Positions 8,900 through 14,533 of a DNA stretch of 64,000 nt are shown piece by piece (position 1 is the stretch's first letter; the number at the start of each line of letters is the position of its first letter). Source of the stretch: Citrifermentans bremense (GTDB lineage Bacteria; Desulfobacterota; Desulfuromonadia; Geobacterales; Geobacteraceae); the NCBI RefSeq assembly GCF_014218275.1, contig NZ_AP023213.1:682001-746000 (forward strand), in the 5' to 3' direction. Under the pieces are notes generated by a model. That model made no database searches, was not told the DNA's origin, and saw nothing but the letters and a program-made list of their open reading frames with translations. The translations under genes were made by a program, and so were the position numbers.

Positions 8900-8936
8900 C
8901 GCTCTAATCTTGCTGCGGCGCAGGTGATGAATTAGA

Positions 8937-8965
8937 TTGACAAAAGGTCCTCTTTTCGATAACAA
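8937..8965 (+). promoter_or_regulatory. Promoter of hppA
   Basis: TTGACA (8937-8942), a 17-base spacer and TAACAA (8960-8965) predict transcription from about 8972, giving a leader of about 80 bases before hppA. Confidence 0.5.
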
Positions 8966-9050
8966 TCACCCGTTTTTATGAATGGATTTGTACTGTGCAA
9001 AGGGAAGTCACGCCTTTTCGAGGCATATCTAAATAGGAGGATTTTTTTCA

Positions 9051-11093
<2,043 letters not shown>

Positions 11094-11112
11094 CAAAGGC
11101 TTTGGCTGAAAC

Positions 11113-11148
11113 AAAAAGGCGTCCCGGGGTTCCGGGGCGCCTTTTTTT
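11113..11148 (+). terminator. Intrinsic terminator of hppA
   Basis: A GC-rich hairpin (AGGCG-CCCGG paired with CCGGG-CGCCT) ends in seven T residues, 20 bases after the hppA stop. Confidence 0.85.
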
Positions 11149-11227
11149 GTTCTTCAGAAGCCGCCCTAAAGCGAGGGAGGATGCCCGTCGAGCCAGGAGC
11201 TTTTCTCGCTCGATTGCGATCTCACTT

Positions 11228-11535
11228 GGAATCGTTGACTTCGGTCGGGAATAAGGAAATTCGATTTGGAATTTTGCAATTCCTGTTCGGAATAGTGAAT
11301 TTTCGTTTGAGATTTTGCAATTTTGATTTGGAATAGTGCTATTCCCATCGGGAACAGTGAAAATCGATTTGGAATTATGCAATTCTGATCGCGAATAGTG
11401 CAATTTCCACGCGGAATAGTTAAATTCCACCCAGGAATTTGCAATCCGCGTCCGTAATAGTGCTATTCGTTTTGGAATAGTAAAATTTCACCCGGGAATC
11501 TTCAATTCGTGTTGGGAATAGTGCTATTCGGGCGG
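11228..11535. repeat. Array of 15 degenerate dyad repeats, period about 20.5 bp
   Basis: Fifteen units start near 11228, 11248, 11268, 11289, 11309, 11330, 11351, 11371, 11392, 11413, 11434, 11454, 11474, 11495 and 11515, spaced 20 or 21 bp. Most have the form GGAAT-N5/6-ATTCC (best units GGAATAGTGCTATTCC and GGAATTTTGCAATTCC), so each repeat is itself a dyad. The array is visibly AT-richer than its surroundings and lies between the hppA terminator and the 3' end of glgA. Outside the array, 11094-11626 shows no gene. Alternating 20- and 21-bp spacing breaks any reading frame, so it is not a coding repeat. The two-turn spacing places every dyad on about the same DNA face. Confidence 0.85.
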
Positions 11536-11626
11536 CAGTAGTAGAAACCGGCTTCCGCAGGAGAGCAATCCGCTTTTTCAGATGCCGTCGCTGCAATCGG
11601 AAAGGCGGGGAGGCTGTTCCAGAGAG

Positions 11627-13189
11627 CTAAGCAGGGAGCTGGTATTTCTCCCGCGTGTCCTCACTGCTCTTTTCTCTTCTTTTACTCCGCCTCTCTGTCA
11701 CCTGCCGGAACCTCTCCTCGCCCAGCTTCCTTCTCATCCCCTCCAGGTAGAGCCGCTCGTATTTCGCCGCCGCGTCCTCCCAGGTGAACCTCTTGCCCAT
11801 GGCATTCTGCCTGAGGGCCTTGATCCCTTGGCGGTCGTGGTACCAGGTGTGGACGGCCCAGCCGACCGTGTCGAACAGGGCGCCGGCGTTCAGGTCCCAG
11901 AACTTGAAGCCGTCCCCGCTTTTGTTGCGCGCATCGTAGTTCTGTACCGAGTCGTCAAGCCCCCCCGTTGCGCGCACGATGGGTATGGTGCCGTACCGCA
12001 TGCTGTACATCTGGTTAAGGCCGCACGGCTCGAACGCCGAGGGCATCAGGAAGAAGTCGCACCCCCCCTCTATCTGGTGCGCCAGGGCGTTGTCGTAGCC
12101 GATGCGGCAGGCGAAGCGGTCGGGGCGGCTGGCGGCCATCCCCCCGAAGTAGAAATGCGCCCAGGGCTCGCCGGCGCCCAGAAGGACGAGCTGGATATCG
12201 AGTTCGAGGATCCTGGGGAGGGCCTGGGCCAGCACGTCTATCCCCTTTTGCTTCACCAGGCGCGAAACCATCCCTATCAGCGGCACGTCATCCCGTTCGG
12301 GAAGTCCCAGCGCCCGCTGCAGCTCGCGCTTGCAAATCCCCTTTCCGGCAAGGTCGGCCGCACTGTAGTTGGCGGGAAGCAGCGGGTCGGTCTCGGGGTT
12401 CCACTCCTCGTAGTCGACTCCGTTGAGTATCCCGGAGAGCTCCCCTGCACGCTCCCGTACCACCCCTTCCAGCCCCCAGCCGTACTCAGGCGTCTGGATC
12501 TCCCGCGCGTACCCCTGGCTCACCGTGTTCAGCAGCGTCGCATGGTAGATCCCCCCTTTGAGGAGGTTCACCTGGTTCTCCTTCTCGAGCTCCAGATAGG
12601 TGAAGTGCTGCCAGCCGATGCCGAGCACGTCCATGGCCCCTTCGTAGAAGCTTCCCTGGTGCTGCATGTTGTGGATGGTGAGCAGAGACGCCGACTGGGA
12701 GAGATACTGGCCGTGGCGGTACCAAGTGTTCATGAGGACCGGGACCGCGGCTGTGTGCCAGTCGTGGGCGTGCACCAGGTCCGGGGTGAAGTGGATCATC
12801 TTGCACAGCTCAAGGCTAGCCTTGGAGAGGAAGATAAAGCGGTTGTCGTTGTCGAGATACCCCTTGTTGTCCCGCTCGTAGAGCGTGTCGCGGCCGTAGA
12901 AATCCTCGTGCTCCAGGAAGTAGACGGGAACGTCGCTGCCGGGGATGCGTCCCTCGTAGACACCGCAGTACATGTCGCCGATGATCCCCATCGGCACGAC
13001 CAGCAACCCCGGGAGCTGGCGCAGCCGGTAGCGGTCGCGGTCGACCTTGTAATAGCGGGGCATGACCACCCGGACGTCGTGCCCACGGGCCTCAAGGTAT
13101 TTCGGGAGGGCGCCGACGACGTCGGCAAGCCCTCCTTCCTTGGCGAAGGGAACGGCTTCGGATGCGGTGATGAGGATGTTCAGACGCAT
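11627..13189 (-). CDS. glgA: Glycogen synthase (ADP-glucose type) GlgA
   Basis: Adds glucose from ADP-glucose to glycogen. The 520-residue GT5 protein begins with the starch-synthase catalytic domain (ASEAVPFAKEGGLADVVGALP, with KEGGLAD in place of the more common KTGGLAD). It has the GT1-like C-terminal half with the FEPCGLNQMYSMRYGTIP nucleotide-binding motif. The last about 20 residues are charged. Other glycogen genes are not adjacent, and no terminator is visible before the dyad array. Confidence 0.93.
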   Translation of the reverse strand: MRLNILITASEAVPFAKEGGLADVVGALPKYLEARGHDVRVVMPRYYKVDRDRYRLRQLPGLLVVPMGIIGDMYCGVYEGRIPGSDVPVYFLEHEDFYGRDTLYERDNKGYLDNDNRFIFLSKASLELCKMIHFTPDLVHAHDWHTAAVPVLMNTWYRHGQYLSQSASLLTIHNMQHQGSFYEGAMDVLGIGWQHFTYLELEKENQVNLLKGGIYHATLLNTVSQGYAREIQTPEYGWGLEGVVRERAGELSGILNGVDYEEWNPETDPLLPANYSAADLAGKGICKRELQRALGLPERDDVPLIGMVSRLVKQKGIDVLAQALPRILELDIQLVLLGAGEPWAHFYFGGMAASRPDRFACRIGYDNALAHQIEGGCDFFLMPSAFEPCGLNQMYSMRYGTIPIVRATGGLDDSVQNYDARNKSGDGFKFWDLNAGALFDTVGWAVHTWYHDRQGIKALRQNAMGKRFTWEDAAAKYERLYLEGMRRKLGEERFRQVTERRSKRREKSSEDTREKYQLPA

Positions 13190-13273
13190 ATGGATCGGCT
13201 CCTGTGGCTAGTCTGTGGTGGCCAAGGCCTCAGAAAAAATACCATGCAAAATGAACGGCGCAATTGGTTCGTG

Positions 13274-14533
13274 TTAATTATTCCGACGCGGATCGGGCTC
13301 CTTCATCGCTCTGAGGGCTGCCACCCGCTCCACCACGGGAGGATGGCTGTAATAAAAACCGGCGTAGAGCGGGTGGGGGTGGAGGTTAGAGAGGTTTTCG
13401 CAGGCAAGCTTGACCAGGGCGGAGGCAAGTGCCTGCGGGGCCCGGCTTAGTGCCACTGCGAACCGGTCCGCCTCGCGTTCGTTTCTGCGCGAGAGCCAGG
13501 AGCCGACTGGGGTGAACGGGAAGGAGGCGATAGAGAGGATGAAGCTTACCAGAAGCACCTGGGCCGGGAAGGAGGCGTCTTGGTGGCCGAAGAGCCCGGG
13601 GAGCCCCCCCCAGGCGATCAACCGGTGCACCAGGAAGAAAAGCGCTAGCGCCACGCTCTCCATGAGTAGAAGCTGCTTCCAGATGTGCCCCTTCTTCCAG
13701 TGGCCGGTTTCGTGCGCGAGGATGGCCAGCAGTTCCTGGCGATCCATCTGCTTCAGCAGTGTGTCGTACAAAACGATCCGCTTCACGTGCCCTATGCCGG
13801 TGAAATAGGCGTTGGAGTGGAGGCTGCGGCGGGAGGCGTCCATCTGCAGGACCCCCTTCACCTCGATCCCCGCCCTGTACAGCATGACTCGTATCTCCGC
13901 CTCGAGCCCAGGGTCGGAGAGCGGCTCGAACTTCGAGAAGAGCGGTTCGATGACGTAGGGGGAGAGGTAGATCATGGTTATGGAGAAAAGCGCGAAGAAA
14001 GCCCAGACCCAGAGCCACCAAAGCTCGGGGGAGTGCCGGACCAGCAAAAGGGCGCCGCTCACCAGGACTCCCATGAGAAGCGCCGAGATGAGGAGCGACT
14101 TGAGGAAATCCGAGACCCAGAGGCCGGGCGTCATGGTGTTGAAACCGTAGCGCCGCTCCAGGTGGAAGGTGTTGTAGAGCGAGAACGGGATCTCCAGGAT
14201 GCTCTGCGCCAGGTAAATAATGAGCATGAAAAGCAGCCCCTGGACCAGGTAGGAGCCGGACAGGGAGGCGATGAAGCGGTCATAAAGCGGAAACAGGGGG
14301 GTGAACAGGAACGCGAGGAGCAGGGCGCTGTCGTAGACCGATTCCGCGAGCCCTACCCTGTGCTGCTCCATCGTATAGCGTGCCGATTTTTCCAGCGCCT
14401 CCTGGTCAATGGCCCCGGTAAACCCTTCAGGGACGGTGGCTCCGTGCCGCTTGAGATGGCGCAGGTTCAGGTAACGCAAAAGGTATGCGGCGGCAAAGCG
14501 CGCGAGGAACAGCGATATCAGGACTGTCTTCAT
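13274..14533 (-). CDS. M48 family (Ste24-type) membrane metalloprotease
   Basis: A zinc protease of the CAAX-prenyl-protease/Ste24 family, probably in inner-membrane protein quality control. The motif HETGHWKKGH is the zinc-binding HExxH, and a downstream glutamate lies in RRNEREADRFA. Several hydrophobic segments precede and follow it, as in Ste24. The chosen ATG at 14533 has an AGAGG sequence five bases upstream; a longer frame from 14635 runs back through the preceding terminator, so it is unlikely. Length is 419. Confidence 0.85.
   Translation of the reverse strand: MKTVLISLFLARFAAAYLLRYLNLRHLKRHGATVPEGFTGAIDQEALEKSARYTMEQHRVGLAESVYDSALLLAFLFTPLFPLYDRFIASLSGSYLVQGLLFMLIIYLAQSILEIPFSLYNTFHLERRYGFNTMTPGLWVSDFLKSLLISALLMGVLVSGALLLVRHSPELWWLWVWAFFALFSITMIYLSPYVIEPLFSKFEPLSDPGLEAEIRVMLYRAGIEVKGVLQMDASRRSLHSNAYFTGIGHVKRIVLYDTLLKQMDRQELLAILAHETGHWKKGHIWKQLLLMESVALALFFLVHRLIAWGGLPGLFGHQDASFPAQVLLVSFILSIASFPFTPVGSWLSRRNEREADRFAVALSRAPQALASALVKLACENLSNLHPHPLYAGFYYSHPPVVERVAALRAMKEPDPRRNN

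Follow-up and report, generated by a model that had tools for sequence, protein, structure and literature searches.

Minisatellite or VNTR arrays are tandem, homogenised and variable between species. CRISPR loci are also regular arrays, in which partly palindromic units are separated by unique spacers, and in ToxIN, a type III toxin-antitoxin system, each gene is adjoined by a tandem repeat of its own. REP and BIME sequences are described as short intergenic palindromes that sometimes occur as inverse pairs and are tied to RAYT transposases (PMC3733652). In a related bacterium, Geobacter metallireducens, there are multicopy intergenic elements with heptanucleotide, TCTCCGT or CCYTC repeats and paired sites; these classes are putative regulator sites with short repeats, which likens them to the array considered here, but they are not arrays of 20-21-bp dyads (PMC2700814). 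In the open-licence literature, judged by title or the start of the abstract, nothing was found that describes such arrays or their link to genes with a fibronectin type III (FN3) domain. The array is a member of a class of intergenic DNA arrays that is apparently undescribed.

The array lies in a 64,000-nucleotide stretch of Citrifermentans bremense DNA (the window) and sits 3' of both members of a convergent gene pair. The features are as follows.

9051 to 11093, plus strand: hppA, a membrane pyrophosphatase of 680 aa, whose open reading frame ends upstream of the array (the gene name is that of the initial annotation)
11113 to 11146, plus strand: terminator-like hairpin with a 15-pair stem and a T run, in the gap between hppA and the array
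11228 to 11550, no strand: tandem array of a 16-bp loosely dyadic core and a 4-5-bp linker (profile chaining, self-match, tandem repeat finder)
11228, 11248, 11268, 11289, 11309, 11330, 11351, 11371: starts of array units 1 to 8 (profile chaining)
11392, 11413, 11433, 11454, 11474, 11494, 11515, 11535: starts of array units 9 to 16, the last weak (profile chaining)
11330 to 11345, no strand: best unit, GGAATAGTGCTATTCC, with TG flanked by 7-bp arms (pattern match, 0 mismatches)
11515 to 11530, no strand: second-best unit, GGAATAGTGCTATTCG (pattern match, 1 mismatch)
11627 to 13189, minus strand: glgA, glycogen (starch) synthase, convergent with hppA (Pfam Glyco_transf_5, E 6.3e-80)

The array that the initial annotation placed at 11228-11535 is real. 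When a symmetrical profile of 16 columns is chained along the region, 16 units result, with a weak one at the end (11535-11550); their spacings are 20, 20, 21, 20, 21, 21, 20, 21, 21, 20, 21, 20, 20, 21 and 20, so 15/15 are 20 or 21 bp. Self-match is 0.553 at lag 62, 0.539 at lag 41 and 0.502 at lag 21, far above the best lag of 500 dinucleotide shuffles (mean 0.327, sd 0.012, maximum 0.378), and the tandem repeat finder returns periods of 61-62 and 21. The AT-richness that had been claimed is seen in 100-bp windows, with a GC of 0.32-0.43 within the array and 0.53-0.71 in the surroundings, and the array does begin past the hppA terminator hairpin. Since the spacing obtained by profile chaining is mixed, the annotation was also right to set aside a coding heptapeptide repeat; two minus-strand ORFs of 121 and 92 aa that span the array are judged spurious. 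The array shares with CRISPR a regular succession of partly palindromic units, but these are contiguous, with 4-5-bp linkers and no unique spacers of CRISPR length. As for the claim that each unit is a GGAAT-N5/6-ATTCC dyad, a modest dyadic tendency stands, with 2 of 1000 shuffles equalling or beating the dyad chain score, but the motif itself fits a minority of the units: that at 11330-11345 is the single clean dyad, and many others are half-conserved. Next to the array, the glgA frame of this genome is 520 aa long, while its relatives align only to about residue 497, leaving a differing C-terminus (11627-11700).

Orthologues of hppA are present in 19/19 genomes of the genus, and glgA follows hppA in 15 of these; G008, G015 and G004 (no glgA in the stretch read) and G016 (the contig ends) are omitted from the count. 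The 15 intervals are as follows.

Full array, 9 genomes: own, G006, G014, G013, G009, G002, G001, G007, G017
Three-unit remnant, 1 genome: G012
No array, 5 genomes: G003, G011, G005, G010, G018

The core letters vary among these arrays (AATAGTGCTATT in some, AATAAGCTTATT in G009). The cores alternate in G001, and neighbouring units are inverted in G013, G002, G007 and G017. Because the units diverge, a DNA similarity search with the window array matches in few genomes (7 of 58, own included). A covariance model of three units, called R1 and trained on 49 windows from known arrays, matches under strict filters in 14 of the 58 genomes, that is, in 14/19 of the genus (own included) and 0/39 others. 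The window array is therefore not unique to one strain, and the search of related genomes that the initial annotation had advised does find further arrays. The own genome gives no second array with the window unit: a pattern search returned 34 matches, 11 of them inside the array, against 35 for a reversed control pattern.

Presence that varies between close species, as in the 15 intervals above, can be expected of a functionless minisatellite, which slippage and unequal exchange would expand, homogenise and delete in harmless, gene-free gaps, the FN3 genes described below merely being there. This is the main rival explanation, and the position of the hppA array, outside both genes and past the terminator, agrees with it. 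We consider it unlikely, in part because of the spacing. Beyond hppA, 16 stretches that hold additional or suspected loci of this kind were examined. Over the 9 arrays at hppA and 16 others, 25 arrays of 11 to 27 units in all, 346 spacings were counted: 226 of 20 bp, 107 of 21, 7 of 22, 5 of 19 and 1 of 18. The count penalised all spacings from 15 to 27 bp equally and needed both units to score above 3, so that about 60 spacings flanked by weaker units are omitted; the profile behind it had a mild bias towards 20-21 bp from its training, which somewhat favours the share of 333/346 at these two lengths. The letters drift, but the period remains close to two turns of the helix, which is the period that the annotation had noted for the window array; in a minisatellite, drift should scatter the lengths of such diverged units. 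True minisatellites and these arrays are alike in being tandem, homogenised and variable between species, but a period kept near two turns through strong divergence sets the arrays apart, as does their recurrent association with a single gene family across three phyla.

A two-turn period would also add up bends, so one could consider an intrinsically curved DNA element. Curvature, computed with wedge parameters, exceeds that of shuffles at z above 1.64 in 8 of the 25 arrays, but the mean z is 0.90 and that of the window array 0.11, and this explanation appears very improbable. Another reading, raised in the initial annotation, is an RNA with many short hairpins, which, if the array is transcribed, might serve as a sponge, decoy or stability element. 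Most of the 25 genus arrays do outfold their shuffles, but they do so on both strands (for the own array, z is -5.0 on the plus and -3.1 on the minus strand), as expected of any repeated dyad, and hairpins have no need of 20-21-bp phasing. The claim is further weakened by the arms of 393 units, whose positions show no covariation beyond column composition; the symmetry is therefore that of two similar half-sites, not of pairing kept pair by pair. In addition, no promoter match was found across 10900-11900, an Rfam search of 8900-13300 at E up to 10 left the own array without a match, and a search of 14 FN3 or hppA loci gave only two riboswitches, placed outside the arrays. We regard a hairpin RNA as improbable. 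The two riboswitches, near FN3 loci, are of the c-di-GMP-I (L214:265-340) and cobalamin (L279:2200-2362) types.

At many loci of the genus, the array directly follows the 3' end of a gene for a protein of about 216 aa, which in several Geomonas species is named "fibronectin type III domain-containing protein". The family is multicopy, with members of about 215 aa that have a helical N-terminus and a C-terminal FN3 domain; a profile of 27 members finds at least 7-14 copies per genome in 19/19 genus genomes, and at least 8 in the own genome. Outside the genus, G024 has 15 members and G020 has 1; at E 1e-6, the remaining 174 of the 195 class genomes have none. The flanks of 95 FN3 loci were scanned on both sides (30 from a first search, 5 from family profile searches and 60 down the ranked profile list; 94 are distinct, as L252 repeats L193), with a self-match of at least 0.5 in a 160-bp window as the threshold for an array. 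Downstream arrays occur at 69 of the 95, and the best lag is 20-21, 40-42, 61-62 or 80-84 in 69/69. Upstream, 12 of the 95 reach 0.5, 7 with an array-type lag, and 6 of these have no downstream array. An array-type period is thus found on either side of 75 of the 94 distinct loci, and 19 are above threshold on neither. About 10 of the first 30 loci were already known for their arrays; where the locus was chosen without such knowledge, a downstream array follows in 44 of 64. As a control, 31 of 200 random 900-bp segments of the window reach 0.5, and 3 have an array-type lag, in each case 84, a codon multiple. The array begins at a median of 160 bp from the end of the FN3 gene and has a median length of 430 bp. 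The ORF that follows is convergent for 30, co-directional for 31 and absent for 8 of these 69 arrays, which is no preference for convergent neighbours.

In the own genome, arrays follow 5 of the 8 FN3 genes, one more is weak (0.46) and two genes have none. All 8 genes lie outside the window, so the window array has no FN3 gene adjacent to it. A sample of about 0.86 Mb of this genome (19%, window included) holds three non-coding arrays, at hppA-glgA, L310:19461-19801 and L318:12121-12661; nine weaker clusters (0.50-0.58, lag 84 or 21) stand outside this count, and two others (L324, L338) lie inside ORFs. The arrays in L310 and L318 have a 21-bp period, other unit letters and no adjoining FN3 gene. 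Because this sample holds non-coding arrays without an FN3 neighbour, the FN3-array link is strong but not exclusive. Still, arrays at 75 of 94 FN3 loci against three non-coding ones in 19% of a genome are hard to reconcile with a minisatellite beside which FN3 genes happen to lie. The segregation site that had been suggested also finds no support, with three arrays in the sample, five more beside FN3 genes and related species that can lack the hppA array.

The letters of the units are completely different between FN3 paralogues and often common to orthologues of sister species (L160/L161, L150/L151). Many FN3-linked arrays are near-perfect repeats, with self-match up to 1.00, and so young, a point in favour of a minisatellite. 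By the likeness of its units to those of FN3-linked arrays, the window array is filed as a putative orphan of the FN3-linked class. In G004, hppA is followed by an FN3 gene and then an array, which shows that a complete pair can reside at the hppA site. Decayed starts of FN3 genes were suspected by eye beside L126 and L113, and tblastn gave no support for them. A dispersed repeat of type AACAGGGATGAAGGGGATGAAGGGGAT, with CGCAAAGACGC-like stretches, was seen by eye near array ends at L145, L149, L155 and L160.

For one FN3 subfamily (L097, L099, L086, L090, L087), the gene past the array varies by species: it encodes an Mrr-type endonuclease at L099 (Pfam) and at L086 and L090 (sequence likeness), a DNA methylase at L097 and a Y1 transposase at L087. 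The site past the array looks like a variable, defence-rich hotspot. The L087 array is 214 bp from the transposase gene, and with elements that are multi-site, palindromic and of variable presence, one could think of a REP/BIME-like family of mobile palindromes moved by a transposase. However, this transposase is the only one among 7 array-flank proteins given to Pfam, and in the own array the one place where GTAG was spotted by eye is the weak last unit, so that such mobility is quite improbable. The REP and BIME sequences described in the literature and the present arrays are alike as short intergenic palindromes associated with one gene family; the arrays differ in that no general tag or transposase partner is seen, the 20-21-bp phasing is contiguous, the letters change from array to array, and the partner is the FN3 protein (PMC3733652).

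The FN3 protein itself is modelled by AlphaFold as helices to residue 107 followed by an FN3 fold (mean pLDDT 89.5, pTM 0.52). Its PDB matches, by sequence and by fold, concern mainly the FN3 part among the matches listed, and in the search on the N-terminal domain the 50 fold matches listed fit the FN3 part. No family in NCBIfam or PADLOC explains it, Pfam gives weak FN3-like matches, and in PHROGs a minor tail protein of phages matches it, mainly in the FN3 part, with E down to 1.3e-7. The protein was considered as the DNA binder of the arrays and set aside, as it has no charge signature for the role (genus mean pI 7.6, net charge of the N-terminal half -4.0); a protein that reads the arrays would therefore probably be another one. 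One could also imagine a type III toxin-antitoxin-like pair of repeat RNA and FN3 protein: as in ToxIN, each gene has its own tandem repeat beside it, and in Bacteroidota and Verrucomicrobiota the array is upstream of the gene. The arrays depart from ToxIN in protein fold (a helical domain plus FN3, with the 50 fold matches listed on the FN3 part), in repeat number and length (many more, shorter repeats) and in lying on either side of the gene, downstream in the window's genus; orphan arrays exist as well. Beside the window array there is no ToxN-like endoribonuclease, its neighbours being hppA and glgA, and FN3 proteins match FN3-containing structures among those listed. Such a pair has the slimmest chance of the explanations considered.

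A scan of other phyla with a pattern of three AATARNNYTATT dyads gave 33 stretches; chance could account for most of them, since any 21-bp tandem repeat that contains the motif matches. On viral contigs, the same pattern gave 2 stretches, and pairs of AATAGTACTATT gave 0. Beyond the genus, only two Bacteroidota genomes gave further leads. In these (L257, L258), a 205-aa FN3-like gene has a 21-22-bp array directly upstream, and a further array (L125/L259) adjoins a 46-residue remnant of an FN3 gene start (tblastn, E 6e-12 for L125). The genus and Bacteroidota family profiles align with a probability of 97.8 and an E of 9e-13 over 112 columns, which include the end of the helical domain. In the Bacteroidota class, the family occurs in 6 of 198 genomes, with an upstream array at 7 of 8 loci (L258, L260, L261, L262, L263, L265, L266; best lags 42, 66, 84, 86); L265 is doubtful (AT-rich, 0.61), and L264, of another subfamily, has no upstream array. 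Elsewhere, 20-21-bp arrays were seen in Bacillus, Chitinophagaceae, Hormoscilla (on three contigs), Spirochaetaceae, Chloroherpeton and Nitrosocosmicus (L106, L119, L122, L115, L103, L108, L120); the A2 profile found no FN3 neighbour at any of these seven, a weak negative since it also missed the FN3-like gene at L128.

In Verrucomicrobiota, 141 genomes from the class to which a Chthoniobacteraceae genome belongs were searched, and FN3 matches occur in 25. They yielded 30 loci, 19 of which were examined; L281-L291, mostly partial or inside long proteins, were omitted, and the set is a subset, as further family matches exist for which no locus was retrieved. Three of the 19 are cut by a contig end. 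The 16 with 1 kb upstream all show an upstream self-match of 0.65-0.93 at lag 42, 43, 44, 63 or 84, and 15 of them are clear arrays; L280, where a pair of long copies lies at 640 bp from the gene, is doubtful. As a control, the gene plus its downstream flank reaches 0.6 in 0/16, and downstream passes of 0.5 among the 19 are limited to L273 (lag 72), L277 (84) and L296 (36). The best lags are multiples of 3 in 14 of the 16 loci, and one reading frame stays open through several of the arrays with a 21-bp period, so the Verrucomicrobiota 21-bp arrays may be coding. At L268, L270, L275 and L294, a short frame read by eye, with peptides such as MANYDTPGLTYDSG or MAPKPITWNGKDDQGK, seems to sit between array and FN3 gene. 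Arrays thus adjoin most genes of one FN3-domain family in three phyla, as named from the record titles of the centre genomes. They are mostly 3' of the gene in Desulfobacterota (6 loci have them 5' only) and 5' in Bacteroidota and Verrucomicrobiota, so there is no single positional rule.

Across these unrelated letters, the unit tends to a dyad with arms of about 6 bp, a 4-nt centre and a linker of 4-5 bp. Arm complementarity in this 6-4-6 layout was compared with columns permuted within the unit, which keeps the repeat and destroys the dyad; after arrays below 0.5 at the lags used were removed, 14, 45 and 5 were left of 16, 69 and 7 for Verrucomicrobiota, the genus and Bacteroidota, respectively. 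The mean z is 3.94 in Verrucomicrobiota (11/14 above 1.64) and 1.60 in the genus (18/45), and 2 of 5 Bacteroidota arrays exceed 1.64. The recurrence is a trend, clearest in Verrucomicrobiota, and orthologous loci are not independent. A dyad layout above repeat-preserving permutations also counts against a functionless minisatellite. Taking the single best dyad per unit, p is below 0.05 in 3 of 32 FN3-linked arrays (self-match 0.8 or more). Paired dyads one unit apart give 7 of the 32, with a summed score of 296.5 against a mean of 267.4 (sd 4.7, maximum 283.5) in 300 shuffles.

Arrays of one genome also resemble each other. Eight-mer similarity is 0.288 for different sites of the same genome (17 pairs, many from G001 and G009), 0.294 for the same site in different genomes (60 pairs) and 0.129 where both differ (223 pairs), and the within-genome likeness has a p of 0.005 when genome labels are shuffled within sites. 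In addition, an FN3 subfamily with at least 54% identity to L099, many arrays of which share the window-type unit, is present in 10 genomes, and 10/10 of these have R1 matches, against 4 of the 9 genomes without it, own included (Fisher p 0.011); shared ancestry and the R1 training set weaken this association. The likeness argues for a trans factor or for copying: a shared reader and copying between arrays would both explain it.

What reading suits the window array best? RNA hairpins, curvature, CRISPR and REP elements suit it less well than a same-face protein array, which is the best reading, with the binding protein hypothetical. A period that stays close to two turns although the sequence changes strongly speaks for an element that acts as duplex DNA, and the dyads speak for a dimeric reader. 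We propose, at a probability of roughly 0.4, that the hppA-glgA array is an orphan of the phased-array class, and that a dimeric trans-acting protein reads it as duplex DNA from one face. The array would offer a row of same-face sites on which this protein may assemble side by side, and the resulting nucleoprotein patch beside genes could locally shape transcription or chromosome folding, with an effect on hppA, glgA or the nucleoid. The reader would be common to the arrays of one genome, which in this proposal is why its unlinked arrays resemble each other, and the hppA-glgA copy might have been left behind, or seeded, without its FN3 gene. Counterpoints to same-face reading are the 19 of 94 FN3 loci that are arrayless by threshold and the at least three own-genome arrays without an FN3 neighbour. 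Held just as tentatively is the wider idea of a cross-phylum element made of a small FN3 gene and its own phased dyad array, in which selection would keep the period and dyad shape, not the letters, while arrays may also live alone, and one protein shared across the genome would read them in trans.

A non-coding element with nearly free letters and a period close to two helical turns, beside one FN3 family in three phyla, would escape ordinary sequence searches. With the phased arrays, bacterial DNA recognition by shape or phase can be tested directly, and they open a first way to study a common but uncharacterised family of FN3 proteins.
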